A stretch of DNA of 64,000 nt from Lepisosteus oculatus. Lineage: Eukaryota > Chordata > Actinopteri > Semionotiformes > Lepisosteidae. A model generated the notes under the pieces. It worked only from the letters and a program-made list of their open reading frames with translations. It made no database searches and was not told the DNA's origin. Where the stretch lies: contig NC_090709.1 in assembly GCF_040954835.1 (NCBI RefSeq), forward strand, positions 40,156,975 through 40,220,974, written 5' to 3'. Positions 22,451 through 55,620 of the stretch are shown here, in pieces (the first letter of the stretch is position 1; the number at the start of each line of letters is the position of its first letter). The translations under genes were made by a program, and so were the position numbers.

Positions 22451-23000
22451 AGTCATTAATAAAACAGGTCTGTGACATTATTTCTTTCAAAGACCGTATT
22501 GGTGTTATCCGTGCTGGCATAATGCGAATAGTTCATGATATAAAAACAACCGGAAGATGAAAGCAGTAGATTGTTTTACTTTGTGTTGCGTTTGTAAATT
22601 CCTTCACTGTTAAAGAAAAAACATGTATTCAGAGGCAGCTACATTACACCCTCTCAAAAAAACAGGTTTTTCTGATGCACATTAACATGAGTGAGAGTCA
22701 GAGAGACTGTTCTCAGTTCTGTTTCTGTCTTGAGTCATTTTCACTCCACAGCTTCTCCCTGAAAACTGAGTCCTGCTGGTTTGTTTTACAGGCTTCTCTT
22801 ATAAATTAACACCTAGACTGTAACTATGTGCTGTTTCTTAATACTTTATAGGAAAATCTCATCATTTGCAATATAGTGGAGTATGTTTGCTAGCAAGATA
22901 TCAACGACTTTCAGTCAGAACCAGTGTTTTCTGTACACCAGGTGGAGTTTTGCACGAATGTCGGTTATTGTGCGAGACGTCGGTGTGAAATGGCGAGTGT
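22450..23000. other. No gene seen
   Basis: AT-rich unique-looking sequence between the duplicated promoter-proximal block and the outer edge of the left arm. No exon or element recognised. Confidence 0.4.
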
Positions 23001-23349
23001 GGAGTGACCAGGGCAGGTTGGGGTTCTAGTGATGGATTGGGGTGCACCTGCGAGCAGTGGGCTGGTGAGGACTGTCTGTGGGCTCATGTGGTCGTGTCTG
23101 TGGACGGGTGTCTCAGAGGGGCCTTCCAGCAGGTTCTCAGGAAGCTCTTCAGGAAGAGAGCCGGCAGAGGTCTGAAGTGGATCTCCTGGACTCGCCCCTG
23201 ACCGGTCTGCTCCCAGTCCTGGCCTGGACTCTGGGATTCGCTGTGGGAGCTGAGTCTTGGGTCAGGAGTCGATGCTGACTCACACACTGAGAGACAGACA
23301 GGCGCCACCCCAACCCTGCTCCACCTACACACAAACACACACAGAGTCC

Positions 23350-23900
23350 TACACAATTGCAAACTGGGTTTGGGAAGCTCCAGGACGGGTGGGGAGGGAC
23401 TGGGAATGTGGGGGCTGCTCCCCCTGATGATAGGAAATGGGACCAGGCAGCCAGGACTGGAGAGGGTGCCTCCAAACCTGCAGGTAGAGGACAGGGGGAC
23501 AGGGGACCCCCCCCATCAGCCAGGCAGGTGAGTGTAGAGCAGGTGAGTCTCTCCTTCACTGGGTTTCCCTCACAGGTGATGCTGGTCTTCATCGATCCTG
23601 CAGGGATGTGATCGGTCCAATCTGGGATTGACACACTCCGAGGGGGCAGAGCAGGAGTCGTCTCGGGGAGACGGACAGGCTGTCCCGACTGCCTTCCTCC
23701 TCCTCTTCTCTGCCTGCTGGAGCCTGTGAGGAAGAGGAGGATGACGAAGAGCTACTGATGACCCTGGTCCAGGTGGAGAGGGGATCTCCTTCCTTTTGTT
23801 GGGGTGGCGGAGGGTGACCCTCAGGGTGGTGTCCTGACCTGCTGTCTCTCCCTCAAGATCCTGGTCAGACTGCTGCCTCTAGACTCATGAAACATCATAG
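23350..23900. repeat. Arm repeat unit U, outer left copy (partial)
   Basis: It shares ggggagggactgggaatgtg, ggggctgc, tctccttcactgg and the acidic-frame block (gaggatgacgaagagct) with 51400-51960 on the other strand. On the + strand the block encodes an acidic stretch (EEDDEEL), preserved in the copies at 26650 and 51540, but no splice-bounded exon could be closed. Confidence 0.6.
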
Positions 23901-23929
23901 TCACTGCACTGGGTTTTTAATATAATAAT

Positions 23930-25250
23930 CGCTGCACTGTTTTCATGCCGAAGGACAGTCACTGTACTGTGTGTTCACTGTAATAATCACTGTACTGTTC
24001 ACTAATAATCACCATACTGTGTGTTCACTGTAATAATGACTGAACTCTGTTTTCATTGTGAGGGACAATCACTAATCGGTTTTTACTGTAATAATCGCTG
24101 TACTGGGTGTTCACTGTAATCATCACTACACTGGGTATTATTAATCACTGTACTGGGTGTTCAGTATAATAACTACTGGGTGTTCACTTCAGTAATCACT
24201 GCACTGAGTATTAATAGTCACTGTACTGGGTGTTCGGTATAATAACTGTAATGGGTGTTCACTGTAATCATCACTGCACTGGGTATTAATAATCACTGTA
24301 CTGTGTGTTCACCATAAACATCACTGTGCTGAGTATTAATAATCACTGTGCTGTTTATTTAATATAATAATCACTGAACTCTGTTTTCATAATGAGGGAC
24401 ACTCCCTATACTGTGTGTTCACTGTAATAATCACTGAACTCTGTTTTCATTGTGAGGGACAATCACTGTACTGGGTTTTTACTGTAATAATCACCATACT
24501 GTGTCTTCAGTATAATAATCACTGTGCTGGGCGTTCAGTATAATAACTACTGGGTGTTCACTTCAGTAATCACTGCACTGAGTATTAATAGTCACTGTAC
24601 TGGGTGTTCAGTATAATAACTGTACTGGGTGTTCACTGTAATCATCACTGCACTGGGTATTAATAATCACTGTACTGTGTGTTCACCATAAACATCACTG
24701 CACTGTTTATTTAATATAATAATCACTGAACTCTGTTTTCATTGTGAGGGACAATCACTGTACTGGGGGTTTACTGTAATTACCATACTGGGTATTCAGT
24801 ATAATCACTGCACTGTTAATATACTCACTGTACTTTGTGTTCACTGTAATGATCACTGAACTCTGTTTTCATTGTGAGGGAGAATCACTGTACTGGGTTT
24901 TTACTGTAATCACCATACTGGGTATTCAGTATAATTGCTTTATTGGGTAATTGATGTTATAGTAACTACTCCATTTTCACTGACAGTTGCTGTACTGGGT
25001 ATTTACTGTAAAATACTGTAAAAATCACTGTACCAGGTGTTCAGTATAATAAAAACTAGTGGGTGTTCACTATGACAGGCAAACACTGTGCTTGGTATTC
25101 ACTGTAATCATCACTGCACTGGGTGTTCAGTATAATAACTACTGGGTGTTCACTGTTATAATCACTGCACTGGGTATTAATTGTCACTGTACTGGGTGTT
25201 CAGAGTGCTGTCTGTTAATCACTGTACAGATCAGTCCTGTTTTTCAGTTG
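23930..25250. repeat. Degenerate satellite, unit about 25-30 bp
   Basis: Variants of aatcactgtactgggtgttc, agtataataat run through the region. A few blocks of about 340 bp repeat at higher order (the passage at 24110-24370 resembles 24520-24780). The mirror region in the right arm is 52600-53590. Non-coding. Confidence 0.85.
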
Positions 25251-25700
25251 TAGGTGGGCTCCTGAAAAGACTGCTGAGCCCAGAAGCAGGAGTGGGATTA
25301 GAGAGGAGGGACAGGTGAGGGGAGCTGTTTAAATCACCTGTGTGAGGCTGTCGGGGGCTGTGGGGCAGGGAGACACGGGGCTGTAGGAGGCTGTGGCGCA
25401 GGGGAGACACTGGGGAGGCTGTGGGGCAGGGGGACACTGGGAGGACGAGCTCAGTGTTGTTCCCATGCTGGTACCTCTCACTCATCCCCGCTGCAGCTCT
25501 GTGTGTGATTCACAGGACAGAAGTGTGGAGCTCACAGAGCAGAGGAAGTCAGAAACTCCTGCTGGAGCATCTGACTCAATATTCTGTACAAACAGGCAGA
25601 GAAACGACATTGGGCCTTTTTCTTGGATAGGAACTGTGCAATTCAGTCATCTGTTTCTTCTTGATTTTGTGCTGTTTATTTGGAGAAATTGTCTTTAACA
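25250..25700. other. G-rich short repeats, no gene
   Basis: Repeated gctgtggggcaggg-gacac motifs at about 25345-25445. I see no counterpart in the right arm and no gene. Confidence 0.4.
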
Positions 25701-25974: not shown

Positions 25975-26640
25975 CGAGAGCAGGAGGACTGGGGGTACCA
26001 CTGGAATCCTGAAAGAGGAAAAGTCAAGAGGGAGGACAGACACCCCGACATTGGAGCTCTCTCCCAGTCGGACACCAGGAGCCCTGACGCCCTCATCCTC
26101 CCCCATCGGCTCCATCTCTCCGGTCGTCTCGTCTGGACGTCGGGCTCCAGGATCTCAGGGAAGGTTCCCTCCTCCCAGCCCGGCTCAGGCCTGAGGAGTC
26201 TGGAAGATCTGGGAGAAGCCAACAGGAAGAAACTCCTCCTGGACCTCGACTCTGGGAGGAGCCCAGCGCCTGGACCCCCGCCCCGGAGACTCGGGCTGGC
26301 CAGGAGGAGGAGGAGGAGCCCAGGGGTGTCAGAACCTCTGAATGAGGTGAGGAAGGGGAGAGAGAGCCTGTGGACAACACCTGTGTTTCTCCAGGACGGG
26401 TCTCCAGAACAGCAGCCCTGGACCGGAGCAGTCGGGACTCGGTGGAGCACAGGCTGCCTTCAGGCCTGTTTATTCCCACCAGGAGCCAGGTCAGACCCTG
26501 TACCAGGCAGGAGAGGGCACCCCCAGACCTGCACAGGACAAGGGGTGTGTGACTGGTCGTACAAGATGGGACAGGGTACCCCCATAAGCAGAGGGTACAA
26601 GGTGCCAGACAGGTCGCTCCCTGCCCGCTTAAGCCTGTGA
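25975..26640. repeat. Arm repeat unit U, inner left copy
   Basis: Matches 52060-52480 and 55270-55560 in reverse orientation: gaataaacaggcctgaaggc, gcctgtgctccaccgag, gaggtccaggaggagtttct and tccagatcttccag-type blocks. All copies have frames open for 80-130 codons, rich in Ser/Pro/Arg, without a recognised domain. Confidence 0.7.
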
Positions 26641-26940
26641 GGGTGACGATGATGAAGAGCTGCAGATGCCCCTGGTCCAGGTGGAGAGCTGGACTCCTCC
26701 TGTCGGGGTGCCAGGGGGTGACCCTCAGGGCTGTGTCCTGACCTCCTGCTGTCTCTCGCCCACAAGGACCTGGTCAGTGTGCTGTTGACACTACACTCTC
26801 GAACCCGAGTCCAGCTCGAGCACAAGGTCAGGTTAGTCCTTTCACACCCAGGGCTGGAACCCACAACCCTACTAGTGAGAGGAGAACTGTTAATGCTCCA
26901 CCAGTATTGATATTGGTACATGATGAAATATTGTTCATTT
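26640..26940. repeat. Arm-conserved block with acidic frame
   Basis: The left (+) and right (-, 51240-51560) versions share gatgatgaagagctgcag, gggggtgaccctcagggctg, tgacactacactctcgaacc and accctactagtgagag. The conserved frame GDDDEELQ suggests a short acidic segment. Start, stop and splice sites cannot be fixed. Confidence 0.5.
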
Positions 26941-27339
26941 TAATTACCATTTATAATAGTCAAATTAATTCATTAGCAGCACCAGCATTAGAATCTAATT
27001 ATCGGTGCTGAATATGCACTACACCACCATCAGGAGCGGAAGAGTTCAGACGTCTCCGATTCATTAACTGGCTCCTCTGTGATTCTCAGGTGTAATATTA
27101 TTGTACTGTTGTCATTATGGTCTCCTGCGAGCTCATCTTGAGTGAAGGTTGGGCTCTGTCTGAGATGGCAGAGCCTTCAGACTCCTGAAACAGCTGCTCA
27201 GCCTACACCCCCGCCTCCTGCTCTCTGATGTCAACACCCACAAACCACGGGGTCAGGGGTCAAGGGTCAGGAGCGACTCCGGTACAGAGCAGATTTCCTG
27301 TTTTCCTTAATTTTCCAGCATGTCCAGAGGCTGACGTTG

Positions 27340-28340
27340 GGAAGACGGGTAGGAGGGGGCTGTTCCCAGCCGAGGGTGAGGGAGACGGAGCCTGAACACT
27401 GCAGCACAGGTTCTGAGCACAACGGCCTCTCTCCAGTCGGTAACGCCTGTCTGCTGTGCTCTCTGGTCCGGTGTGCTTTGTTACTCAGCTGTCTCTCCAG
27501 TCAGGTCCTGGAGGACTGAGGCTCTGTCTGCGAATCCAGGAATAATCCTGCGGTACCCACCCAGCAGTCCCAGGACTGAGCGGACTTGTCTGGGAGCGAG
27601 GCCGGGATCTCGTTGGCCCGGTGCTTGGACAGCCCAGTGGCCGGCGCCGTGCTCCAGGTGGACCGAACCGCTCCCTTCCCGCCCGGTCCTGCTCGGTGGG
27701 TCCCCCCCTTGAGGGACGTCTCGGTCGTTGCAGGCGCTCGGTCCAGGAGGGGGCGGTAGATGATGACATCATCACCATGCGCCCCTGGGAGGAAGTCTCC
27801 GCGGCCCCCTGGGGTCCAGAAGGCAGAGAGTTAACTGGAAGCAGACGTCCGGGCGTTTGGAGAGCAGCTGAGGCTTCAGAAGGTCAGTTCGTGTCGCAGT
27901 GTTCTTGCCAGAGGTCTGGTGGGCTGATCTGTGTGACTGTTCCTCGCCTCCCCAGTATGTCATCTGCCCGGGGCGCCTGCAGGTGTCGGGGGTCAAGTCC
28001 CCACAGAGTCTCGAACCTCCATCTCGCCTTCGTCGGGTCCAGAGCTCCGGGTTCTGCCCTGCTGGCTCACCGGTGGGGCTCGGTTCGGTCCAGTTTCACC
28101 AGGGTGTCTCGTTCTTCTTTCAGCTGCCTGGTCTGGACGGGCCGGCGCCCCTCGAGTCGGGTTTCAGGCCGGTCCCGTCTCCGTCGGCTCGATAACGCTG
28201 TGGTCTCGCCGCCCTCCCTCCTGACCAGTCCCAGAACGGAGCGGGAGAGGAGACGCTGGTCAGGTCCGGTCGTTGGTCTGTCCTCGGCTACATCCTTAGG
28301 AAGCTGGTCTGTCGGCACATAACTCTTTTATATAGCGCCT
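27340..28340 (-). pseudogene. Decayed Ty3/gypsy retroelement, reverse transcriptase region
   Basis: On the - strand, split over several frames, are the landmarks of a Ty3/gypsy pol: PRADDIL followed by a decayed LDL-x-x-W stretch (27950-27975), a DDVIIY catalytic-motif relic (27754-27777, with the preceding tyrosine lost), and QVRSVLGLLGGYRR plus ASVLQDLTG (27510-27592), which is the conserved junction between reverse transcriptase and RNase H. Frameshifts and stops separate them, and RNase H and integrase are not seen beyond 27340. The element is GC- and CpG-rich compared with its surroundings, and it lies only in the left arm. Confidence 0.7.
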
Positions 28341-29155
28341 TGATGGACCCTCCACTCAGAGCTCTTCCCAGGTCATGGGGATCCCCTCCACCCCCACCAG
28401 TACTCTCGCCACACAGCAGCTCCCAGTGGGGAGGAGAGCAGAGGGATGGAGCCAGTTCAGAGATGGGGCAGTGCAGTGGCTCTGTGCCTCAGAGGGACCC
28501 CCTGTCCGGGAGTGAGGGTGCGCTGCTCGGGCACGGCTCGTCCCTCGTCTTCAAGATGTCACTGGGAGACGCTCGGCTATTCCTCCTCTCCTGCCTCTCT
28601 TCCTGCAGACGGGGGGAAGCCTGGGGATCCCCGAAGGACCCTTCCAGGGGCGAACGTCGACCCCAGCACCCAGAGGTCCCGATCGGATCCCCGTCTCGGA
28701 CACGCGCTTCCGAAGCCGGCTCTTCGGAGTCTGACTGACCCGTCTGACCAGGCCGCCGGTCTCCGGGTGGGAAGGAGACGGATTCCCGGCGGGGTCTAGA
28801 CTGGCCCCAGTGGTCTGGGAGTGGAACCAGTTCCCTGGTCTGTTCCAGTGTCAGGTGGACAGTGTGTTCATGGTCAGACGGGTCTTTGTGTTTCTTCCAG
28901 GGGAAGACTTCAGGACCCTGAGTGGCGTGTTCACGGACGGCTCCCTGTCCTGCTCCTCTCCCTGTCCCCCCTGTCCCCCTGCTGCTCGGTGCCGCCGGTG
29001 AGCTGGCACGCTGGACAGGACCTGCGGCTCTGACTGGTACCCCTGGAGTGGCCAGGCCAGTGACGGCGTCCATCGGTTCGGGCCCTGGGTTCGTGTCTGG
29101 CCCTGGTTCTGGCCGGTCCAGTGTGTGTCCCGTCTTCACACACACACACCTGGGT
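28340..29155 (-). pseudogene. Probable continuation of the gypsy relic (protease/linker region)
   Basis: A 218-codon open frame on the - strand (28489-29145) with Arg/Pro/Ser-rich composition lies between the polymerase landmarks and the gag-like part. A dispersed AGCTCTTCCCAGG-type repeat is inserted at its 3' side (28320-28450). No protease active-site motif is certain. Assigned by position only. Confidence 0.35.
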
Positions 29156-29400
29156 TAGAGGGGAGCTACAGCGCTGTTTTAATTTCAGGGTGAGAGAGAA
29201 TCAGCATTGATCAGGGCGTTGCAAACCACGGCACGAGTCAAATGTGCACTTGGACTTGGGAAACCTCCTGTTGGCGTCACAGAATAGACCGAAATTCCAG
29301 GTACGTGCGGCGCTGTGTTCTGTAGTTCAGGACGAGGCAGAGGAGAAGTGACCCTATGACACTGTGAACAAGCAGGCCTGCTTTAATTCAATAGAAAGAT
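29155..29400. mobile_element. Dispersed element shared with 8485-8730
   Basis: Same ordered blocks as at 8485-8730 (ggggagct-cag, gcaaaccac, gttcaggacgaggc, agcaggc). It interrupts the gypsy-like region. Confidence 0.4.
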
Positions 29401-29867
29401 GACTCTCCGTTTCAAGATGGGTTTTGCCCACAAATACTCCTTGTGAACTCTGCACGTAGATCACGTCTCTGCGGTGAAGTATCTGCTGCACAATCGGTGC
29501 TCATTCGCTCATCACTGTGACTAGTGAGCAGGAAGGGCAGCTCCACATCGCGATGCCTGGGAACTCTTGCCCGAGGCCAGAGCAGGCGTTTCCAACCAAG
29601 TGGCGACACTTCAGTACTGTCAGGAAATTCACAATTCGGTGCCTAATTTGGAACGTGTCAACTTTTGCAAAACTCAAATTTTTTGGGGGGAGATTTAACA
29701 ACTGGGTTGAGAAATTGGGACTGCAGTTCATCTTGAAACAAGCTGTTGTGTTCGTTTTCTGTGTGATGAAGCCAGTCGCCCTTCACCACGGAGTCTTCCT
29801 CGGCCTCCACAGCCCCTGCTCCCAGTATGTCTCCGCGGGAGAGGCGGTCCGGGCGGGAAGGACCGGT

Positions 29868-30000
29868 CTGTCTCCTCCGGCCCAGTCGCTCCGCTCCCCT
29901 GGGCACAGGCACGGTACTGGTCTCCTCCGGCCCAGTCGCTCTGCTCCCCTGGGCGCGGGCACGGTACTGGTCTCCTCCGGCCCAGTCGCTCTGCTCTTCT
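29868..30000. repeat. Tandem repeat, about 54 bp, 3 copies
   Basis: The unit ctcctccggcccagtcgctc, tgctcccctgggc-c, ggcacggtactggt occurs three times inside the gypsy-like interval. Confidence 0.8.
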
Positions 30001-30970
30001 CTCTCTGCGCCTTGTCCTGTCTCCGGGGTCTCAATCGCCCGCAGCACAGGGAGGGAGTTCGCCTCGGACCACTCTCTCGCTGCGCCGGACCCCCAGCTGG
30101 GCGCGAGGCCTGGGGGTAACGCTCGCTCGGTGTGGATATCGGGCTCCGGTCTGGGGTCACTGACCTGGTCTCCTGGCCTGGGAGGGTTCTAAACTGGACC
30201 CCAGAGAAACAGCTGAGAGCCCTGGACATCATCAAGAACAGCCCCCGGGCCCCAAGCAGACCCTTCAGACCCCATTCAGGGCTGGACATGAACATGGCTG
30301 GACTCAGGCGATATAAACCTCTGGAAAGCTGTTCCAGTTCAGGGCTCTGTGGGAAGTGCACCTCGTGTGCGTCTCCTCTGTTCTCCACCGTTGTCGTTCC
30401 AGTCGACCTCATCTCGAACCCTCACGGGACTGTGCTGGGACTCCTCTCATCCCGACTCCTGGGAGCTCGTATCGGGATCTTGTGAGGAGTCCACCAGGAT
30501 GGGTTCGGTGACTCCTCAGTACTACCCACGGCCAGCCTCGAGCTGGGTCCCTCGGTTCTGACGGTCCTGTCTGCTTCAGGGTCTTCCTCCTGATCTCCAT
30601 GACCGCAGCGCAGGTCTTCCCAGCGGCTGTGTGCTGTCGGATCTTCCCACAGTCGTCACTGGGAGGAGACCCTCCCTGGAGTTAGAGGATCGCTGGTGTC
30701 ACCTGGGTGAGTCAGGTGTGGGACGTACAGTATCGGAGTACCTTTCTCTGGGGGGACGGGAGACACACTGGGGGTCTTTCAGTGTCCCTTCTGTCCACAT
30801 CCAAAGCACACAGGCGCTGTTTCCTTGTTTTCAGGGCCACTGTGGTCTGCAGAGAGCTGCCCTTCTCCTCTACACTCTACAGAGCGGGTTACCGAGCCCG
30901 GGAGCTGTCCAGGTCTGAGGTCAGTGGGCAGACAGTGGGAAGATGGAGGTGGGATACTCTCTGCTGTCCA
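30000..30970 (-). pseudogene. Gypsy relic, gag-like part with zinc-knuckle remnant
   Basis: On the - strand at about 30788-30815 the frame reads CFGCGQKGH, the first half of a CCHC zinc knuckle (C-x2-C-x4-H), followed by a stop or frameshift before the last cysteine. That is what is expected at the end of a retroelement gag. With the reverse transcriptase further along the same strand, the order gag then pol is correct for one element. Many stops elsewhere. No terminal repeats could be defined. Confidence 0.5.
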
Positions 30971-32275
30971 TCTTAATCCTAATTTTCCTGGATGTCCAGA
31001 GGCAGACAATGGAGAGACAGGTATAGTTGGGAGTTGGGATAGAAGTTGGATGCTTTCTCTGTAATCTTTTCCCTAATTTTCCAGGACATACTCAAAATTG
31101 ACAGTGGGAAGACGGTAATGTATGAAGATTGAACCTGTTCCTGTATTCTTTCCTAATTTTCCAGGATGTTCTGAGGAAGACAGTGGCGAGACAGGTATGG
31201 ATGTGAAGATGGAGTCGGGTTTGGGTGCTCTCTCCTCTCTTTTTCCCTAGTTTTCCAGGGTGTCCAGAAAAGTCAGTGGGAACACCAGTGTGGATGAAGT
31301 GTTGGGATGGAGGTTGAATGCTCTCTCCTGTCTTTCTTTTCCCTAATTTTCCAGAGTCCAGAGGCTTCCAGTGGGAAGATGGGTATGGATGAGGTGTTGG
31401 GGTTGACATTGGACTGTATTTTTCCAGGTTGTCCAGAGGCAGACAATGGAGAGATGGGTGTGGTTGGGATATAAGTTGGATGCTTTCTCTGTAATCTTTT
31501 CCCTAATTTTCCGGGATGTACTCAAAATTGACAGTGGGAAGACGGGTATGTATGAAGATAGAATATGGGAAGAGGTTCATTCCTAATTTTCCAGGATGTC
31601 CAAAAGCCAACAGTCTATGGATAGGAAGATAGATTGGGGATTCATGATCTCTCCTGTTTCTTTTCCCCAATTTTCCAGGATGGCCAGAGACTGCCAGTGG
31701 GAAGACAGGTATGGATGTGAAGATGGAGTTGGGGTTGGATGCTGTCTCCTGTTTCTTTTCCCTAATTTTCCAGGAGGTCCAGAAAAGTCAGTGGGAAGAC
31801 TAGTGTGGAGGAAGTGTTGGGATGAAGGTTGATGCTCAGTCCTGTGTTCATGTCTATGGTTTTCCCGAATGTCCAGAGGCTGACAGTGGGAAGACGGGTA
31901 TGGATGAGGAGTTGGAATGGAGCTTGGATGCTCACTCCTGTCTCTTTTCCCTAATTTTCCAGAGTCCAGAGGCTGCCAGTGGGAGGATAGGTATGGATGA
32001 GGTGTTGGAATTGACATTGGACTGTATTTTCCTTAATTTTCCAGGCTGGCCAGAGGCTGACAGTGGAAGACAGGTATGTATGAAGATTTGAAACCTCTCC
32101 TGTCTCTTTTTCCTAATTTTTCAGGTTATCCAGAGGCTGCCACTGGGAAGATGGGTATGTAGGAGGTGTTGGGATTGACATTGGACTGTATTTTCCTTAT
32201 TTTTCCAGGTTGTCCAGAGCCGGCCAGTGGGAAGACGGGTATGGCTGGGAGTTGGCATGGAGGTGAGAAGCTCTT
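30970..32275 (+). repeat. Array of about 15 exon-like cassettes (about 30 nt each) with splice signals, left arm
   Basis: Every 85-95 bp the pattern is: pyrimidine-rich tract, CCCTAATTTTCCAG, about 30 nt of conserved core, then GTATGG or GTATGTATG. The core reads, in phase 1, CPEADSGKT with a split glycine, so a spliced chain would be repeats of the decapeptide GCPEADSGKT. Most cores are 30 nt; a few are 28-29 nt or have lost AG or GT (units near 31260, 31760 and 31850), so not all are usable. The mirror array is at 48830-50790. It is either a real array of alternative mini-exons for a receptor or stalk protein, or an intronic minisatellite that captured one exon. Confidence 0.6.
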
Positions 32276-32399
32276 TCCTGTCTCTCTTCCTCCTTGTGGC
32301 GGTCTCTGTGACGTCTGTCTGTCTCTTGAGCTGTGTGTCTTTCTCTCAGTCCAGCTGCTTGTGCTCTGTAAAACACTACACTGCTGCAGTATTAAACAG

Positions 32400-32500
32400 G
32401 GCTTTTTGACTGTGGATTGCAGGTTTGATTCCAGAGGGGACACAGCCTTGTACCCCAGAGTGAGGTACTTTGCTCAGATGGACTGTTCGAATCATGGTTA
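32400..32500 (+). mobile_element. Degenerate tRNA-derived SINE
   Basis: A box-B-like gcaGGTTTGATTCC followed by acagccttgtaccccagagt gaggtactttgc is a common fish SINE body. It has a mirror copy at 48575-48660, so it predates the inverted duplication. Confidence 0.55.
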
Positions 32501-32579
32501 TCAGTGGCTGTACTGTAGGGAGTGGAGTGTTGACAATGGTGTACTCAATTCTCAAGAGTATTGTACCTTAATACACTGA

Positions 32580-35500
32580 CACGTCTGTGTGTTGAACTGT
32601 CACCTGAGCTGAACTTTGGTACTGCATGATACACCAGTGAGTTCTTTCCAATATTATATTTTAATACCCTCACCTGTGTACTGTACCCACATCTCCACTG
32701 AGCTTTAATATGCAAAACTGGGGTAATTATCAAGCCTGTACCTCTCTCCTGTACTGAGCCTTTATTCTGAGTGACACACCTGTGTGCTGAGCTCACACCT
32801 GGACTGGACTGTAGTACTGAAACCAGTGTGCTGAGCTCTCACTTGTAGTGAGTGTTAATTCTCACATTGACACACGAGTGCTGAACTCTCACCTTTACTG
32901 TGCTTTTATACTCAAAAGTGTGTACTGACCCCTCATGTGAACTGTACTATCATACTTAAACCAGTATAACCAGTGTGATACACCTGTGTGCTAAACCTTG
33001 ACTGTGCTTTAATACTCAAACCTCTGTGCTCAGCTCTCACCTGGACTGGACTAAAATATTTAAACCAGTGTGCTGAACCCTCACTTGTACCGAGTGTTAA
33101 TTCTCCCATTGACACACGAGCGCTGAACTCTCCCCTTTACTGTGCTTTCAAACCTGTCAAACTCAAACCTGTGTTGTAAACCTTCACACAGACTGGACTA
33201 TTAATACTTAAACAAGTTTGGTGAACTGAGCTTTAATATTCAAGTGATACACCTGTGTGCTGAACTCTCACCTTGACCGTTTTAATACTCAAACCTGTGT
33301 GCTCAATTCTCACCTGGACTGTACTGTAATACTCAAACCTGTGTACTGAACTCTCATCTCCACTGTGGTCTAATACAAACTCCAAAGGGCTGCACTGCTG
33401 TCTGTGCGGTGTGGTAATACTCCAAACTAGAAACTAAACTCGCCTTGACTGTTGTAATTCTCAAACCTCTGTGCTGGGCTCTCAGCTGTACTATACTGAT
33501 ACTCTGTACTGTATTGTAATCCTCAGATAAGTGGACTCACGGGTCTGACTGGTACAATTTTACAATGCTCAGACCTGTGTTCTGGACTCTCGCCAGTACT
33601 GAGCTTTCATACGCAATGATACCTTTGTGTTGAATTTTCACCTGTACTATACTATAAAACTTAAACCAGTGTGCTGAACTCTCAATTGTACTGTGCTTCA
33701 ATACTCAGTGACACACCAGTATGCTGAACTTCCACCTGCAGTGTTCTTTAATACATGAATCAGTGTGCTACACTCTTACCTTTTACTGAGTTGTAATGCT
33801 CAATGACACACCTGTGTGCTTTACTCTCACCTTGACTGTTTAATACTCACACCTGTGTGGTCAGTTCTCACCTGGACTCTAGCTTGTACTGACCTTTAGT
33901 ACTCAGTGACACATCAGTTTGCTGAGCCTTCACCTGCAGTGTATTGTAATACTCAGATGTGTGTGTGTGTGTGCTGGATTCTCAACTTTCTGTGCCTTAA
34001 TCCTGAAAGTGTTGTGGTCACCTCTCACCCGGACTGTACTAAAACATAACCTAGTGCTTTTTTCTGTGCCTTAATACTGAAACCTGTGTTCTGAACTCTC
34101 CTCTGCAGTGAGCTTTAATACAAAAACCTGTTTGCTTCTTTGTCGTCTGTAATGAGTGGTAATACGCAGACTGGTCATCTTTACTCTGGTCTTTTCTGTG
34201 CTTTAATCCTCTCATCGGTTTGGACATCTCTCTCCCTGACTGTACTAAACTACTTCACCCAGTGTGCTGAACTCTTGCTTGTACTGAGCTGTCATACTCA
34301 GTGACACAATCGGTTGTAGAACCCTCACCTGCAGTGTTTTATAATACTCAGCCCTGCATGATGAACTGTAACCTGTGCTGTTTTTGTGCAGTGCTCAGAC
34401 GTGTGTCCTGAACGGTCTCCCGTACTGAGCTTTAATCCACAACAGCACCCCTGTGTGCTGGGTTCTCACCTGTACTGTACAATACGAGTTAAACCAGTGT
34501 GCTGCTCTCACTTGTGCTGAGCCTCAGTACTAGACCAGTCTGCTGAACCTTCAGCTGTGGCGTGTTTTAATACTCAAATCTGTGTGCTGATCTGGACTGT
34601 TATAATACTCAGCCCTGTGTCGTGTGCTGAACTCTCATCTGTACTGTTTTGTAACCCACAGACCTGTGTACTGTACTGTGTTGTAATATATGGACTGGTG
34701 TACTGAACCGTCACCTGAACTCTGGAAAACAAGAGTACTGGAGCATTCGGGCCCGGAGTACCAGACTCGGAGACAGTTTTTACCCCCGCACTATCAAACT
34801 ACTAAACTCCCAGCCTCTCTCGCCTACGATCTGAACCCCACAGCGCCTTCTCTCTTACCACAAACTCACACACACATTGAAATCTACCCCTACCTCACAT
34901 GTCAAAAAGCTCACTCCACATCATTTCTGTCCTTTTTATTTCATTGTGTTGATGTTGTGTTGTACACTGCCTGTTGTCTTTCTTTTATTATACAATAGTA
35001 TTGTTTTTTTTTTGTACCACTTATCTGAGAGCCAGCTTACTAGCATTTCGTTATCCTATATACCTGTAGGTGAGTGTAATGACAATGAACTTGAACAGTG
35101 TTGTAACAGTCAGCCTGTGTCCTGTATTGCAGTGTTAATACTCAGACTTCAGGCTGAAAGTGTCCCCTGTCATCGATTGTAATACTGAGCCCTGTCTGTG
35201 GTAATCTGAACTATCGCCTATAGTGTGTTGTAAAACCCAGACCGATGTAGTGTTGCAGTCTAATAATTGGACCCATGTTCCAAACTGTCCTCTGTCATAC
35301 TCCTGCCTGTGTACTGTACTCTGCTGTAATAATGTGCTGACATGTCACCTCAATCCTCTTGTATTGCTCGACCCTCTGTCCCCTGATGTGAACTGTCCCC
35401 TCTCCTGTTGTAATACTGAAACCTGTGTGCTGTACGACAGTGTAATAATTGGACTGCGCTGCTGAACTGTATTGTAGCACTTGGAGCTGTCCATGGTCCT

Positions 35501-36930: not shown

Positions 36931-36949
36931 ACCTCTGTCCTAAACTTAG

Positions 36950-41435: not shown

Positions 41436-41459
41436 ACCTCCGATACTCACCTTGATTTA

Positions 41460-44560: not shown

Positions 44561-47500
44561 TCAACCATTTTTAAAAGAGAACAGGTCAGAGACAGGAGTG
44601 CTACAATACAGTACAGGTGAGAGTCCACCTTCAGGTACACAACAGTGCACTGAATAGGACAGTGGAGTACAGGGGAGCTGTTGGCCTCCTGGGGCAAGTA
44701 CTACAGTCCACAACTTTGGCTCTTAAAACACAATAGAGATAACAGTTCACATGATCGACAAGGCTAAAGGTTACAGTACTATATTAGTAACACTGTTTTA
44801 ACTACACATAGTACAGTGGATTAGTGGACAGAGGGCCCAGGGTTCATACACAGTACAAGTGACAGCTCAGTACAATAGTCCACATTCACCAGTACAGGAC
44901 ACAGATCTGACTCTTACACTAGAGTACAGGTGACCATTTAGTACACAGGTCCACTTATTATAGTGCAGTATAGGGCTTATGACTATATTACAACAGAATA
45001 CAGGTGACAAGTCAGGGTATTACACTAGATCACAGGTGATAGTTTGGCACACTGCTCTAATTACATTGTTGTACAACAGGGAGCTGGGTATTATATCATA
45101 CTTGTGACAGTTCACATCACCATACAATACTACACAGAGGTCTAGCTATTATAACAAGATAAGTAACATTTAACATAACAGCACAGTACCCATGTCTGAG
45201 TATTACACTAGAGTACAGGTAACAGTTTGGTACACTGAACACGTTATTACATTATAGTACAGTACCCATGGCTGGGTATTACAGCACCATACAGGTGACA
45301 GTTGACATCACAGTACAAGAGAGATCAGGATCTCACACTAGATTACAGGTGACAGTTTGGCACACTGCTCTAATTACACCATCATACAGCACAGAGGGCA
45401 TTACAAGTGACAGTTTACATCACCATACAGTACAGGTCTAGGTATTACTACAATATAGGTAACAGTTAACAGGAGAGTACAGTACACAGGACTGAGTATT
45501 ACACTAGAGCACAGGTGACAGTTTGACACTGCTGTGTTTATTACACTGTCATACAGCTGGGTGATACAACAATACAAGTGACCATTCACATCCCCATACA
45601 ACACACAGGGCTGAGTAATACAACAATACAGGAAACATTTAACATGACAACAGCATACGCATGTCTGACTATTAGCACAGGTGAGTGGTACAGTGAACTG
45701 GTTATTACATTATAGGACAGTACACATGGGTGGGTATTACAACACCATACAGTTGACAAGTCAGGGAATTACAATAGATTACAGGTGATAGTTTGGTACA
45801 CCAAACAGGTTATTACATTGTAAATCAGTACACATGGCAGGATATTACAAAACACTACAGGTGACAACAGTACAGTAGACAAGTCAGGGTATGACACTAG
45901 AGCACAGGGGACTGTTTCAGACTCAAGTCTGAATGTTACACTGAAATACAGAACAGAGGGTGACTGTTACAACAGTGTACAAGCACAGTTCAGTACAGCA
46001 GTCCATGTATTACAGCACAGTACGCCACACAGGACTGAGTATGACAACAGTACAGGTGACAGTTCAACACACTCGGCTCAGTCTTACAACAGTACAGGAC
46101 ACAGGGCTGAGCATTGGCACAGTACAGCTCATCACACAGATCTGAGTATTAAAACACTGCCGGTGAAGGTTCAACAAGCAGTTGTGTCACAGAATTAATA
46201 TCTAGTACAAGTGAGTTCAGCACAGTCCAGGTAAGAGGGGAGCACACATTTGAGTAATTATAATCATAATCAAGTGAGAGTAAAGCACACAGGTGTGTCA
46301 TTGAGTACTGAAACTGAGTAAAGGTGAGTGTAGCACACAGACTCAAGTATTAAAGTAACTTACCGCTGAAGGTTCACTCTACATCCATGTCACTGTGTAT
46401 TAAAGCTCAGTTACAAGTACGAGTTCAGCCACACTATTAGAGTACAGTCCACCTGTTTAAATAGAAGAGATGAGAGTTCAGCACCCTGGCATGAGTATTA
46501 TAAAGATCACTGCAGGTCAAAAGGTCAGCATACTGGTTTAACACTGAGGATTCAAGTCAAGTTCATCGTCATTATACTCATACAGGTATGTGGGACAACA
46601 AAATACTATCGAGCTTGTGCTCAGATGATAAGTAGCAAAAAGAAAACCAAATACAATACAATTATATAATAAAAGACAACAGGCAATGTGCAAAAACATG
46701 CATCAACAGAATGGAATAAAGGATAGAAATGTGGAGTGAGCTTTTTGACATGGAAGGTAGGGGTAGATTTCAATGTGTGTTTGAGTTTGTGGTAAGAGAA
46801 GGCACTGTGGGGTTCAGATCGTAGGCGAGAGAGGCTGGGAGTTGAATAGTTTGATAGTGCAGGGGTAAAAACCGTCTCCGAGTCTGGTAGCCCGGGCCCG
46901 AATGTTCCGGTACCGTTGTCCAGGTGGTAGAGGGTCATGCAGGCTGGAGCTGGGGTGGGTGGGGTCTTTGATGATGCCTAGAGCTTTCCTCAAGCCCCGT
47001 CTGTCATAAATGTCCTGTAGGTCCAATGGTTTTCACCATTGAAGGCCAGTACAAGTGATAGTTCAGTACACAACTCTGAGCAGAGCAAAATAGTACCAGT
47101 CTGCTGTGAGTTCACATCTCTATTACAACACAGTACAGGTTACAGTTCATCACACAGGGCTGAGTACCCTAATAGGACAGTTGCTAGTTTAGCATAAACA
47201 TCTGGGTATTAAAACACTGCAGGTGAAGGTTCAACAGACAGTTGTGTCACTGAGTATTAAATTTCAGTACAAGCGAGAGATGAGCACACTGCTTGAAGTA
47301 GTTTAGTACAGTCCGGGGGAGAGCTGAACACAGATTTGAGTATTAAAGCACAGAAAAGGCTAGAGTTTAGTGTACGGGTCTGAGTATTACCACACATTAC
47401 AGACAAGAATGAAGCATACAGGGTTTTGTATTAAAGCTCACTGCAGATGAGAGTTCAGAACTCAGGTTTCAGAATTAAAACAGAAAAAAGTACCAGTTAT

Positions 47501-48530
47501 ATTTAGTACAGTCCAGGTGAGAGCTGACCACACAGATCTGAGTATTAAAACATTAAATTAAAAATGGTGAAAAAGTAAATTATACAGGTGTGTCACTGAG
47601 TATTAAAACCTAGTAAAAGGTAAGAGTGTAGCACACAGATTTGAGTATTAAAGAACACTGCAGGTGAAAGTTCACCATACTGGGTCACTGAGTATTGAAG
47701 CGCAGTACAATCAAGAGTTCACTACAAGGTTCAGCATAGAGGCATGTCAGTGAATATTGAAGTTCAGTACAGGTGAGAGTTCAGCACAAGTCTGAGCATT
47801 ACAACAGTACAGTTCATCACACAGGGCTGAGTACTCTAATAGTACAGTTGACAGCTCAGCACACAGCCTTGAGTATTCCAGTTCAGTACAAGGGAGAGTT
47901 CAGCACACTGGTTTAAGTAGTTTAGTACAGTCCAGGTGAGGGTTTTCTCCACAGATGTGAGTGTTAAAATTAAGCTATAAAAAGGTGAGATTAAAGCACA
48001 CAGGTGTGTCAGTAAGTATTAAGTCTCACTGAGTAGCACACAGATTTGAGTATTGAAATACACTACAGATGAAGGTTCAGTATACACAGCACTGAATATT
48101 AAAGCTCACTTACAAGTTAGGGATTAGTACACTGGTTTAAAGTATTTTACTGCAGTTTGAGAATTAAAGCACAGTAAAGGTGAGTTTTGCACTCGTGTGT
48201 CAATGGGAGAACTAGATTAAGTACAAGTTCAGCACCCAGGTTTCAGTATTACAGCACAGTCCACAGGATAGCTCAGCACACAGGTCTGTCATTGAGAATT
48301 AAAGCTCAGGACAGGAGAGAGTTACTTACACAAGTGTGAGGATTACCAGTATTAACGATCAGTGCAGATGGGAGTACAGTACACAGGTTTGGGTGTTCAA
48401 GTATTATATAGGAAAGACTTCAGCACACTGGTCTATTTCATTGAGTAACAAAGCTCAGTACATTGAAAGTTCAACACAGACGTGTCAGTGTATTAAGGTA
48501 CAATAGTCTTGAGAACTGAGTACACCATTG
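44560..48530. repeat. Long degenerate satellite, right arm
   Basis: Reverse-complement variants of the left satellite (gagtattacactagagtaca, ggtgacagtttggtacactg; later cacaggtgtgtcactgagta, ttaaag). Interrupted by the LINE at 46555-47030. Confidence 0.85.
46555..47030 (-). mobile_element. LINE 3' fragment, right arm
   Basis: The - strand frame contains IYDRRGLRKALGIIKD, then HPSSSLHDPLPPGQRYR and TRLGDGFYP. This is the post-reverse-transcriptase C-terminal region of L2/Rex1-like LINEs, followed by the 3' UTR and a ttcaag-type tail near 46555. It is longer than the left copy and shares its insertion position in the satellite. Confidence 0.7.
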
Positions 48531-48569
48531 TCAGTACTCCACTCCCTACAGTACAGCCACTGATAACCA

Positions 48570-48665
48570 TGATCAGAACAGTCCATCTGAGCAAAGTACC
48601 TCACTCTGGGGTACAAGACTGTGTCCCCCTCTGGAATCAAACCTGCAACCCACAGTCAAAAAGCC
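48570..48665 (-). mobile_element. Degenerate tRNA-derived SINE, right arm
   Basis: Mirror of 32400-32500: gcaaagtacctcactctggg gtacaag, then ggaatcaaacctgc (box-B-like on the - strand). Confidence 0.55.
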
Positions 48666-48829
48666 CTGTTTAATACTGCAGAAGTGTAGTGTTTTACAGA
48701 GGACAGGCAGCTGGACAGAGAGAGACACACAGCTCAAGAGATGTCCCAGAGACCGACACAAGGAGGAAGAGAAAGACAGGAAAGAGCTTCTCACCTCCAT
48801 CCCAACTCCCAGCCATTCCCATCTTCCCA

Positions 48830-50795
48830 TTGGCAGCCTCTAGATAACCTGGAAAAATAAGGAAAAGACAGTCCAAAGTCAATCCCAACACCTTATCCAT
48901 ACCCATCGAGCATCCAAACTCCATTCCCACTGTCTGCCTCAGGACATTCTGGAAAACTACAGAAATGATCACAGGACAGAGCATCAGCCTCCATCCACAC
49001 AGGTCTCCCTGCTGTCTGCCCCTGCATTGGAGTCCATCTTGACCTTTTACCCCTGGTATTTTGGTGTTTGAGCTCAGAGAGCAGGAGACGCTGCTGGAGC
49101 CAGGAGAGCCCATCAACCCCATTCTGTCTTCCTCATCCACACTGGTCTTCCCACAGTCAGCCAGTCTTCCACTGTCTGCCTCAGGACATTCTGGAAAACT
49201 ACAGAAATGAACACAGGACAGAGCATCAACCTCCATCCCAACACTTCATCCACACTGGTCTTCCCACTGACTTTTCTGGACACCCTGGAGAACTAGAGAA
49301 AAGAGGAGAGAGCACCCAACCCCCACTCCATCTTCACATCCATACCTTTCTCTCCCCTGTCTTCCTCAGAACATCCTGGAAAATAAGGGAACAAGAACAC
49401 AGGAGAGGGTTCAATCTTCATACATACCCGTCTTCCCACTGGCAGCCTCTGGCCAGCCTGGAAAATAAGAAAAAAAGAGAGACAGGAGAGACCATCAACC
49501 TCCACTCCAACTCCCCTTCCACACCCATCTTCCCAGTGTCAATTTTATGGACATCCTAGAAAACCAGGGAAAATATTCTGGGAGAGAACATCCAACCTCT
49601 ATTCCAACTCCCAATCATACCCGTCTCTCCACTGTCTGCCCCTTGACATCCTGGAAAATTAGGGAAAAGAAAACAGGAGAGGATTTAAATCTTCATACAT
49701 ACATACCTGTCTTCCCAGTGTCAGCCTCTGAACTTGCTGGAAAACTAGGGAAGATACAGGAGAGGGTTTAAGTTTTCTGGACATCAAGATTAAAAGGAGA
49801 GAGCATCCAATCTCTATTCCAACCATACCCATCTTCCCACTGGCCACCTCTGGTCAGCCTGGAAAATACTACAGGAGAGAGTGTTCAGGATCAATCCCAG
49901 CACCACATCCACACCTGCCTCTCGACTGTCTGCTTGTGGACATCCTGGAAAATTAGGGGGAAAAGAAGATTCCCACCTCCATTCCAAATCCCCTTCCACC
50001 TCCGTCTTCCCACTGTCAATTATTTTGGACATCCTGGAAAATTTGGGAAAAGATTACAGGAGAGGGTAACCAACCTCTATCCCAACTCCCAGCCATACCT
50101 GTCTTCCCATTGGCAGCCTCTGGATATTCTGGAAAACTACAGAAATGAACACAGGACAGAGCATCAACCTCCATCCACATTGGTCTTCCCACTGTCTGCC
50201 CCTGCATTGGAGTCCATCTTGACCTTTGACCCCTGACATTTTGGTGTTGGAGCTCAGAGAACAGGAGACGCTGGAGACAGGAGAGACCAACAATCCCCAT
50301 TCTATCTTCCTATCCATACCTGTCTCCCCAGGGTCAGCCACTGGACATCCTGGAAAATTAGGGAAAGGAAAACAGGAGAGAGTTCAGTCTTCATACATAC
50401 CCGTCTTCCCAGTATCAGCCTCTGGTCAGCCTGGAAAATACGACAGGAGAGAGTTGAGCATCAATCCCAACACCACACCTGCCTCTCGACTGTTTGCTTG
50501 TGGACATCCTGGAAAGTTACGGGAAAAAGTTACAGGAGAGGGTAACCAACCTCTATCTCAACTCCCAGCCATACCCATCTTCCCCACTGTCCACCTCTGG
50601 TCAGCCTGGAAAATACGACAGGAGAGAGTTCAGAATCAATCCAAACACCACACCTGCCTCTCGACTGTTTGCTTGTGGACATCCTGGAAAATTAGGGAAG
50701 AGAAAACAGGAGAGGGTTCAAATCTTCATACATACAGGTCTTCCCAGTGTCAGCCTCCCGACTTACTGGAAAATGGAAGAAACGGGAGGGAGCAT
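48830..50795 (-). repeat. Array of about 20 exon-like cassettes, right arm
   Basis: Reverse complement of the 30970-32275 pattern. On the - strand the signals are ...TTTTCCAG, a core of about 30 nt (cch-gag-gc-gac-agt-ggg-aag), then GTATGGnTG or GTATGTATG. Frames again show CPEADSG and PEAANGK-type peptides. It is longer than the left array; units near 49000-49230 are spaced further apart. Confidence 0.6.
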
Positions 50796-50799
50796 CCCA

Positions 50800-51260
50800 C
50801 CTCCATCCCAGGACACGCTGCTGTAGGCTGCACAGCTGTGACAGCTGGTTTGTGTGTCTGAGGGCAACAGTCTCTCTGTGCCTGGTCATCTGTCTTCAGC
50901 CCAGCGTTCACATGTCACTCAAGAGAGAAAACCTGACCTTAACTATTACAGCTGTACAATAACTACACAACATCACTTGGCACAGAGGAGCTGTGTGGAT
51001 CCTATCACAACTACAGAGCAGAGGCATGTCTGAGCTCTCTGTTCTAGTCCTGATGGTGGTGTCATACAGATTACATACAGGTGACAAGAACACTGCTTCT
51101 ATCACTAGTGTTTCTGCTGAAAACAGTAGAACTGCTTCCATTACTAGTACTGCTACTGAAAACAACAATAATACTGCTTCCAATAATAGTGCGGCTAATA
51201 AATCTAGTAATAGTATTACTATTAATTCAAGAATAACTACTCCACCAGACTAATATCAAT
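50800..51260. other. Mostly unique sequence with a Ser/Thr/Asn-rich frame
   Basis: A + strand frame (50993-51253) is rich in Ser, Thr and Asn because of act/aat triplet drift; it lacks a signal or domain. No gene is called. This is where the left arm has the gypsy interval. Confidence 0.35.
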
Positions 51261-51560
51261 GCTAGTAACTTTATAACAGTTCTCTCACTAGTAGGGTTGT
51301 GTTCATGCCCTGAGTGTGACACAGGAGTGACAGGACTAACCTGACCTTGTGCTCGAGCTGGAGGGTGGTGTTGGACTCGGGTTCGAGAGTGTAGTGTCAA
51401 CAGCACAGTGACCAGGTCCTTCTGAGGGAGAGACAGCAGGAAATCAGGACACAGCCCTGAGGGTCACCCCCTGGAGCCCCGATAGGAGGAGTCCACTGGC
51501 TCGCCGCCTGGAGCTCATCTCAAAGGAGCAGCCTGAATCAGGGTCGCCTGCAGCTCTTCG
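51240..51560. repeat. Arm-conserved block with acidic frame, right copy
   Basis: Mirror of 26640-26940. On the - strand gaggatgaccatgatgacga agagctgcag encodes an acidic stretch (EDDHDDEELQ). Confidence 0.5.
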
Positions 51561-51689
51561 TCATCATGGTCATCCTCACAGGCTCCAGCAGGCAGGAGAT
51601 CAGGACACCCTGGATGTCTCCCCGAGACGACTCCTGCTCTTTCCCTTCTGAGTCTGTGGATCCAGATTGGTCCGATCAGCACCGATCAT

Positions 51690-52490
51690 GTAAGACCAGC
51701 GTCACCTGCGAGGGACAGCCAGTGAAGGAGAGACTCACCTGGTCTGCACTCACCTGCCTGGCGCCTCGTGCCCTTCAGTGCTGATGGGGTACCCTGTCCC
51801 CTCCTGTGCTGACCAGTCAAGAACATCCTCTTGTCCTCTAACTGCAGGTCTGGGGGTGCCCTCTCCAGCCTGGTACAGTGTTGCCCCACTTCACCCCTGG
51901 CTGCCTGATCCTGTTTCCCAACACGGGGGGCAGCTCCCACATTCCCAGTCCCTCCCCACCTGTCCCACAGCCTCCCTGACCTCTCCCTGCCTGCAGGGTC
52001 AGGTTCCTCCTGCAGGAGCTGTGTCTGGTGGGAATAAACAGGCCTGAAGGCAGCCTGTGCTCCACCGAGTCCCGACTGCTCCGGTCCAGAGCTGCTGTTC
52101 TGGAGAAACACAGGCGTGTTGTCCACAGGCTCTCTCTCCCCCTTCGGAGGTTCTGACACCCCTGTGTCTCCAGGCACTGGGCTCCTCCTCCTCCTGGTCA
52201 GCCCCAGTCCTCAGGGGGGTCCAGGCGCTGGGCACCTCCCAGAGTCGAGGTCCAGGAGGAGTTTCTTCCTGTTGGCTTCTCCCAGATCTTCCAGACTCCT
52301 CAGGCCTGAGCCGGGCTGGGAGGAGGGAACCTTCCCTGAGATCCTGGAGCCCGACGTCCAGACGAGACGACCGGAGAGATGGAGCCGATAGGGGAGGATG
52401 AGGGCGTCAGGGCTCCTGGTGTCCGACTGGGAGAGAGCTCCGATGTTGGGGCGTCTGTCCTCCCTCTTGACTTTTCCAGGGTTCCACAAA
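51690..52490. repeat. Arm repeat unit U, inner right copy
   Basis: Mirror of 25975-26640 joined to sequence found at 23350-23640 on the left, so the right copy keeps the intact order. A second right copy lies at 55080-55620. Confidence 0.7.
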
Positions 52491-52599
52491 GATCATGGTT
52501 GAGGATGTTCAGTGTCACACAGGAATGTTCTTTGGCTTCAACTGTCTGGTACCCCACTCCCTCCAGCTCTCACCTGGCTGGTACCCCACTCCTCTCACC

Positions 52600-54050: not shown

Positions 54051-54315
54051 AGGTCAGGTGCAACCCTGCATCTCTAGACCGTATACATACAGGACAGGTG
54101 CGTCTCTAGACCGTATACATACAGAACAGGTGCGTCTCTAGACCATGTGCCTCTAGACTGTATAAACACAGGTCAGGTGTGTCTCTAGACCATGTGCCTC
54201 TAGACTGTATAAACACAGGTCAGGTGTGTCTCTAGACCATGTGCCTCTAGACTGTATAAACACAGGTCAGGTGTGTCTCTAGATTATATACATACAGGAC
54301 AGGTGCGTCTCTCTC
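54050..54315. repeat. Tandem repeat, about 55-bp unit
   Basis: The unit gtctctagaccatgtgcctc, tagactgtataaacacaggt, caggt recurs three times with shorter related units upstream (54065-54140). Confidence 0.85.
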
Positions 54316-54443
54316 ACCTCTCTCTCCTGCTCCGTGACTGAGCCAGTGGAGACACATGCAGAAGGAGAGCAGAGAACAGGGTGAAGATCAGACTCACTCG
54401 TGCTGCGATCTCCTGTCAGGCTGGGCAGGGCTCAGGGTTCAAG

Positions 54444-54709
54444 TCAGGGGTAGGCTCTTCCTTTCCTGTAAAACACAAGTAGGAAGATCAGACAGCCTGC
54501 AGCACCAGTCAAGTCCCTTCCAGTGGTCAGAGGGATCATTCTCTGCTGTATAGGGTTTTTATAAGCCATTACCCCCACAGACGGGGTCTGCTTTCTCAAG
54601 CAGGTGGTCTCGTCTCGGAGTTTGAGGTCACAGGGCAGGGTGACTGCGTCCCCGAGTCGGACTGCTCTGAGCTTGGCTCCTCCAGAGACGACCGCCCACA
54701 CAGCAGCGC
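54444..54709 (-). pseudogene. Truncated V-domain receptor exon (gene E)
   Basis: The acceptor ttgtctctgcag lies at 54710-54711 and the frame starts AAVWAVVSGG, then LGDAVTLPCDLKLRDETTC. This matches the gene D V exon (63357-63707: AAVWAVVSG, LGDTVTLPCDLELRHETTW). The C-strand Trp is changed to Cys with loss of two residues. The match fades after about PIQQ, and the second half of the domain, including the F-strand cysteine and J-like motif, is missing. The frame then runs to a stop at 54444. It is best read as a 3'-truncated copy of the gene D family, lying inside the right arm of the inverted duplication. Confidence 0.65.
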
Positions 54710-55079
54710 CTGCAGAGACAATATAAAGACGACAGAAAATCACATCGCATGACCCCACACATCACCCTGAACCACACACAGAGAACAAACTCCATTCTCT
54801 ACCTGGCTGATCCAGGATCCCAGCTGTGCCTGGTCAGGACAGAGGTGGGACACTCCTGAGAGAGATCACCCTGATCTCACGGACTCCATCAGGGAGCAGG
54901 ACTTCCAGACTGTGTCCCTGTATGAGCGAACCTGCGGGACACGTCCAGCATCTCTATTGAGAAACAGGACAGCTCAGAGTTTTAAACCAACACCTGGAGA
55001 CTCCACTGAGTAACACATGATACTCATGGCAAAAAAATCCTTTGAGCAATCTTCTGTAGTGGCCTCTGTAGTTCAAATA

Positions 55080-55620
55080 TCAGAGAGTACAGTGTTGCCC
55101 TACAGTTTTACCCCATTTCACCCCTGGCTGCCTGATCCTGTTTCCCCAACACGGGGGGCAGCTCCCACATTCCCAGTCCCTCCCCACCTGTCCTACAGCC
55201 TCCCTGACCTCTCCCTGCCTGCAGGGTCAGGTTCCTCCTGCAGGAGCTGTGTCTGGTGGGAATAAACAGGCCTGAAGGCAGCCTGTGCTCCACCGAGTCC
55301 CGACTGCTCCGGTCCAGAGCTGCTGTTCTGGAGACCCGTCCTGGAGAAACACAGGCCTGTTGTCCACAGGCTCTCTCTCCCCCTTGTTCCGTAGTTCTGA
55401 TGACAACCCTGGGCTCCTCCTGGTCAGCCTGAGTCTCCAGAGGGTCCAGGCTCTTCCTCCTCTTCCTGGTCAGCCCGAGTCTTTGGGGGGGGTCCAGGCA
55501 CTGGGCTCCTCCCAGAGTTGAGGTCCAGGAGGAGTTTCTTCCTGTTGGCTTCTCCCAGATCTTCCGGACTGCTCCGGATGGGAGGGAGACACAGCCGGAA
55601 CACCGGAGCAGGAGGTCAAC
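55080..55620. repeat. Arm repeat unit U, outer right copy
   Basis: Closely similar to 51880-52290 in the same orientation (cctggctgcctgatcctgtt, cccacattcccagtccctcc, gaataaacaggcctgaaggc). Confidence 0.7.

Follow-up and report, generated by a model that had tools for sequence, protein, structure and literature searches.

The inverted duplication

The subject of this analysis is a long inverted duplication in Lepisosteus oculatus (NCBI RefSeq assembly GCF_040954835.1). It lies in a stretch of 64,000 nucleotides on contig NC_090709.1 (positions 40,156,975 to 40,220,974, forward strand), which is called the window here and is numbered from its first letter. The duplication is real, and its blocks are collinear in mirror order, as had been proposed in an earlier reading of the window (the original prediction). 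A blastn comparison of the window with itself is dominated by one opposite-strand match, of 38176-43283 to itself, from which weaker matches extend outward in a chain. Exact inverted matches of at least 25 bp between the arms give the same picture: counted by eye, with the core and the dispersed repeat E excluded, 15 of 17 are in strict mirror order around 40,782. The other two lie at 31532, in a cassette array, and at 33799, where the sequence is rich in repeats and has several alternative matches. The predicted centre, about 40.75 kb, is close to this midpoint.

The order of the blocks is the same on both sides. Moving outward, it comprises the core, the 37.5-37.95 kb block, a satellite, the 34.0-35.3 kb blocks, a satellite, the 32.15-33.4 kb block, a cassette array, and repeat E. 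The core has its left arm at 38176-40769 (+) and its right arm at 40795-43283 (-). Just outside it are left-arm blocks at 37496-37555 and 37562-37954 (+), with partners at 43845-43900 and 43289-43714. Three further left-arm blocks at 34013-35266 (+) have partners within 45810-47532, and the block at 32150-33365 (+) is paired with 47765-48907. On the right, the blocks and satellites of 43289-48907 (-) mirror 32150-37954.

The arms reach approximately 26.0 kb on the left and 52.5 kb on the right. The left arm is ~3 kb longer, as expected from a left-only insert of ~3.4 kb within the cassette array (27400-30850) that has no match to the right arm in the self-comparison. Together with a 221-bp left-only stretch at the edge of the core, this insert agrees with the predicted indels of up to about 3 kb. 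The mirror was originally believed to extend to 23.0 and 55.62 kb, a claim that is rejected since those ends are copies of repeat E.

The cassette arrays occupy 30922-32290 (+) and, as its mirror, 48765-50810 (-). Each unit of ~80-95 bp is composed of a splice-acceptor-like TTTTCCAG, ~30 nt, and a donor-like GTATG or GTGTG. By one pattern, the interval is exactly 30 nt in 6/13 left and 11/15 right cassettes. A lone cassette is found at 27.3 kb, beyond the left-only insert, and the cassettes of both arms point toward the palindrome centre. The arrays look like micro-exon arrays. The frame evidence is weak because, among the 17 exact 30-nt cassettes, one frame is open in 16 and a different one in 15.

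The left-only insert contains a reverse-transcriptase-like piece on the minus strand (27484-27768), which matches Gag-Pol and reverse transcriptase chains at E 0.033 in phmmer (matches up to E 10). This single match hints weakly at a retroelement; the 10 pieces scanned for the insert have no Pfam match up to E 0.1. The outer blocks had been labeled a long interspersed nuclear element (LINE). A coding LINE is unsupported there, with no Pfam match among the open frames scanned, and the label is unconfirmed.

Identity between the arms

Identities between the arms count substitutions only, and BLAST hits served to choose the outer blocks. Core blocks are 97-100% identical. Identity then falls sharply to ~88% at 37954/43289, with 87.9% at 37.56-37.95 kb and 89.3% at 37.50-37.56 kb. 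Farther out it is uneven: 88.9% at 34.7-35.1 kb, 75.3% at 35.07-35.27 kb, 81.7% at 34.0-34.4 kb, 83.9% at 32.15-33.4 kb, 86.1% at 26.6-27.0 kb, and 88.2% at 26.50-26.61 kb. The outermost pair, 26017-26482 / 52025-52477, is 96.8% identical. The profile thus has a plateau in the core, an abrupt drop at its edge, and low, uneven values beyond, a step rather than the gradient of the original prediction, which is rejected on these block identities.

The step is large. Eight selected outer blocks, pooled with 26.0-26.5 kb left out, differ at 456/2979 sites, compared with 19/2361 for 38176-40574 of the core (Fisher test, p ~7e-96). Divergence is therefore ~19-fold lower in the core than in these selected blocks, whose Kimura two-parameter (K2P) distances are 0.12-0.30. 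At the edge itself, 47/388 sites differ in the block ending at 37954 and 2/1110 in the first part of the core.

The high value at the outer end belongs to repeat E. Copy E1 (26000-27008, +) is the outermost left block, with its mirror partner at 51178-52477; copy E2 (51163-52500, -) is the outermost right block. A third copy, at 55.1-55.6 kb, shares 94.6% and 95.7% identity with these two over the 280 and 419 sites that align, and the three are pairwise 94-96% alike over 280 to 851 aligned sites. A fourth copy, at 23.4-23.9 kb, is 85-87% like the other three. The 96.8% identity of the outermost pair is weak evidence on the arms because the third copy is about as similar.

The core, its edge, and its centre

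The differences within the core are clustered. Two of the 19 substitutions are at its outer edge, none fall in 38226-39285, and 17 fall in 39286-40068. A further 9, in the central minisatellite (40636-40772), are not counted because that part cannot be aligned reliably. The first of these zones is an exact match of 1060 bp, 38226-39285 (+) to 42174-43233 (-), and the second is a 783-bp stretch (+) with 2.2% divergence. Between 40069 and 40574 the arms differ only by a 1-bp and a 38-bp indel, with no substitution over 468 aligned sites; the last one before this run is at 40068 in the full core alignment. Base-for-base identity had been predicted for 38270-39500 / 41950-43190. It is confirmed within the 1060-bp tract and ends there, as substitutions follow directly inward at 39286, 39322, 39419, 39500, 39501, 39507, and 39526. 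The identical tract is also the outer half of the core and not, as believed, its innermost part; the 783-bp stretch lies nearer the centre.

Random placement of the 19 substitutions gives a run of at least 1060 sites in 0.024% of simulations (p 0.00024). With a tight cluster collapsed, leaving 17 substitutions, the p for the longest run is 0.0006. Both substitution-free runs, 1060 and 468 aligned sites, are reached in 0/100,000 simulations. The longest run is likewise reached in 0/100,000 when the minisatellite substitutions are included (28/2461). The CpG observed/expected ratio is alike in the two zones, 0.18 in the 1060-bp and 0.20 in the 783-bp zone, and therefore does not explain their differing divergence.

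The core looks to be built of repeat-derived and low-complexity sequence. The 783-bp stretch holds tRNA-like units resembling a short interspersed nuclear element (SINE). The only match in the window to a polymerase III A/B-box pattern, 41650-41702, is in its right-arm partner. A tRNA search found none, a SINE-like pattern has no match in a collection of genome contigs, and the window holds no Rfam family at the gathering threshold. A single open frame of the core was scanned and has no Pfam match. Promoter-like and SINE-like sequences both lie within the core. Inside the identical tract, at 42480-42730 and its mirror 38730-38980, TTAAAAGG is followed ~200 bp on by AATAAAG; we take these signals to resemble those of retroelement long terminal repeats (LTRs).

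The divergence step adjoins the 221-bp left-only stretch (37955-38175, +), where the right arm has ~5 bp in the alignment. Homology between the arms resumes beyond it. The right-arm bases between the conserved flanks, CACAA (CACAACT with flank), are also present, in order, in the left-only stretch. This is a weak sign that the 221 bp were once present in the right arm as well, given a chance of ~1-20% for the CACAA match (hand estimate).

The centre of the palindrome is a 25-bp spacer (40770-40794) flanked by a perfect 12-bp stem (40758-40769 / 40795-40806), which places the midpoint at 40782. A 7-bp stem (ATGAAAA/TTTTCAT) spans 40782-40799 beside it. Around this point, 40575-40950 is asymmetric: the two arms differ there by indels of 1 to 61 bp. 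It is made up of a purine-rich minisatellite with an unequal copy number in the two arms. The 9 substitutions at 40636-40772 are accompanied by several indels, and 40575-40634 has no partner in the other arm. Fold-back duplications in yeast are primed by short inverted repeats (PMC10622511). Central asymmetry is described in a nematode study as stabilizing long palindromes (PMC1803023). Both fold-back priming and central stabilization fit this centre, and neither is proved.

Proposed gene conversion and its alternatives

The favored explanation is an old inverted duplication whose core was homogenized by arm-to-arm gene conversion while the outer arms escaped, with a probability of about 0.62. 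In this proposal, arms of ~12-15 kb would have arisen at the short 12-bp inverted repeat; fold-back or template-switch DNA synthesis is a plausible origin. The outer arms would then have diverged until their alignable blocks were 75-89% identical and would have acquired large indels; their divergence suggests that recombination between them ended. The inner 2.5 kb of each arm may still have exchanged sequence by conversion that stopped, going outward, at the 221-bp heterology. There may have been two or more bouts, with ~2% divergence left at 39286-40068 by an older one and the 1060-bp tract made identical by a recent one. Indels in the minisatellite have left the centre asymmetric, which would reduce cruciform formation and breakage.

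Conversion of the inner part is preferred because of the ~19-fold lower divergence, the abruptness of the change, and the clustering of differences. Patchy copying between the arms at different times is the simplest reading of that clustering. Provided that the core and the outer arms were duplicated together, the arm-to-arm difference in the core (19/2361 versus 456/2979) is far below the expectation for an age taken from the outer arms. The size also fits measured conversion tracts, which average 2068 bp in human palindrome P6 (PMC3723533). The original prediction was correct in the mirror and probably also in the gene conversion of an inner part. Its graded profile and its extent, and a steady rise in identity toward the centre, are unsupported.

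Several points weigh against this explanation. Identity does not rise toward the centre, and the central minisatellite is the part of the core most unlike between the arms. Conversion is read from one sequence. SINE-like units lie in the 783-bp zone, which could owe part of its divergence to exchange with copies elsewhere. The blocks used for the outer arms are biased low, since they were selected by BLAST; the 15% figure is thus an underestimate and the true outer divergence is higher. A step would also result if the core had been duplicated separately at a later date.

This last point is the basis of an unlikely alternative, a nested palindrome of two ages. The old outer arms would have enclosed a single-copy spacer, and the 2.5-kb core would derive from a recent second fold-back with no continuing conversion. 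A former spacer is expected to leave left-only sequence at the step, as the 221-bp stretch does, and the 12-bp stem at the centre is of the fold-back priming type; yeast fold-backs begin at such short inverted repeats (PMC10622511). A single recent event, however, predicts an even spread of differences, and the observed spread is 0 in 1060 bp and 17 in the next 783 bp. The new copy must also join the right arm within ~5 bp of the start of left-arm homology, and the CACAA and CACAACT traces weakly suggest that the right arm once held the 221-bp stretch. The edge of the core may thus mark conversion halted by heterology or a core formed separately. The first is preferred because the second predicts evenly spaced differences and requires the join to fall only a few bases from the old homology.

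It is also unlikely that the core is an assembly error, in which two alleles, or one locus read twice in fold-back or chimeric reads, were placed tail to tail within a genuine old duplication. Two alleles can show ~1-2% divergence with identical kilobase stretches, and consensus polishing can also yield a long identical tract. Against this, the palindromic junction falls where it is expected, at the middle of an older mirror for which the selected blocks give K2P distances of 0.12-0.30, and the central spacer and unequal minisatellites are unlike a plain fold-back read. The original prediction had named uniform identity along both arms as the sign of a fold-back artefact. Identity instead changes in a step, and mirrored sequence extends out to 26.0 / 52.5 kb; the step profile and the diverged outer arms thus reject an artefact spanning the whole palindrome. 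A fold-back artefact could be confined to the core alone.

The core is unlikely to be a transposon with long inverted ends, since outer homology continues and no matching direct repeat is seen by eye at 38176 / 43283, where no dedicated search was made. Purifying selection on a needed cruciform or shared regulatory element is very improbable: it is argued on structure for similar nematode repeats (PMC1803023), and the core does hold promoter-like and SINE-like sequences, but its repeat-derived, low-complexity look and its lack of Pfam and Rfam matches in the searches above speak against it, and it leaves the sharp indel edge and the 0 versus 17 differences in adjacent stretches unexplained.

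Genomic neighborhood

The window contains 82 rows of tandem repeats and has a G+C content of 49.9%, ranging from 41% to 62% in 2-kb bins. Together with immunoglobulin V-set exons, these features give it a eukaryotic appearance. The V-set exons lie on the minus strand, near 17 kb with a Pfam V-set E of 2.9e-12 and near 63.5 kb with an E of 1.8e-13. The exon near 63.5 kb also matches antibody and T-cell-receptor chains in PDB. These immunoglobulin-domain exons are the nearest genes found. They are presumably akin to novel immune-type receptors and similar multigene families of fish. Within 25.9-54.8 kb, a sample of open frames (16 proteins) matched no Pfam family up to E 0.1. One of these open frames, 54447-54761 (-), lies outside the mirror; it resembles the beginning of another V-set exon (63.3-63.75 kb), with which it shares AGAAVWAVVSG, and is then broken off. 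It has no Pfam match and, by this resemblance, is likely a receptor pseudogene fragment.

A direct duplication with immunoglobulin-domain exons is found at 6808-7500 / 15012-15704 (96%) and 7458-8448 / 17016-17978 (88%), and part of it recurs as an inverted copy at 1-245 (97%). Such repeated direct and inverted copies indicate that the neighborhood duplicates often. Minisatellites at 16187-16865 and 62670-63337 have the same ~50-bp unit, CCCTGGACAGGACACCAGTCCATCACAGGACACACAC, in direct orientation and are ~87% alike. A third array at 5773-6397 has a weak inverted match to them (~63%). On the left side, outside the shown mirror, 23959-24780 is a satellite with a ~28-bp unit, TCACTGTACTGTGTGTTCACTGTAATAA, and related sequence continues to ~25.2 kb. 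Among the self-comparison matches, this satellite has no inverted partner.

Comparison with known palindromes

The locus is real and biologically sensible, and its type, a palindrome with arms that copy each other, is already known elsewhere. The closest anatomy is that of the intergenic long inverted repeats of Caenorhabditis (PMC1803023). One example there has 2207-bp arms, a 126-bp spacer, and 99.7% identity, and lies between an inverted pair of paralogous genes. Common to both systems are a near-perfect inverted core between inverted flanks and central asymmetry. The nematode repeats have identified paralogous genes as flanks and were compared in three species, whereas this locus is known from one sequence and is flanked by cassette arrays, satellites, and repeats. 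The authors of the nematode study name gene conversion as one mechanism but favor selection on structure.

Mammalian sex-chromosome palindromes have arm-to-arm conversion with tracts of a few kb, as proposed for the core here (PMC3723533, PMC8981503). Their arms are longer (median 37 kb in a conserved primate X set; PMC8981503) and >99% alike, whereas most of the arm has escaped here. Human Y palindromes, unlike this locus, have non-duplicated spacers in most cases. The likeness to sex-chromosome palindromes drawn in the original prediction is therefore apt for mechanism only; nothing places the locus on such a chromosome. Yeast fold-back duplications share a centre at a short inverted repeat and a small spacer, but they are induced laboratory rearrangements, and this locus is old and homogenized (PMC10622511). 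Like maintained palindromes, the locus has inverted arms mirrored around a short centre. Such palindromes usually have near-identity (>99%) along the whole arm; here only the inner 2.5 kb is 97-100% identical and the selected outer blocks, apart from E, are 75-89%. It looks like a palindrome that has mostly escaped from homogenization.

Among the literature matches listed (titles and abstract openings), none is an inverted duplication homogenized in a fish immune-receptor cluster. A more elaborate and highly doubtful scenario is a decaying palindrome in an immune-receptor neighborhood. Conversion would have retreated to the indel-bounded core, and read-through transcripts of the inward arrays of 30-nt cassettes with splice-like ends would run across the centre and form a long hairpin RNA.

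Should the chromosome be an autosome, the locus would be an example of a palindrome outside the sex chromosomes. Its boundary at a single 221-bp heterology would make the idea that an indel stops conversion testable by species comparison. Unless it is confirmed in relatives, the locus would be an ordinary feature of repeat-rich gene clusters. If confirmed, it would be a compact natural case of palindrome death, with the homogenized and the escaped states in one locus.

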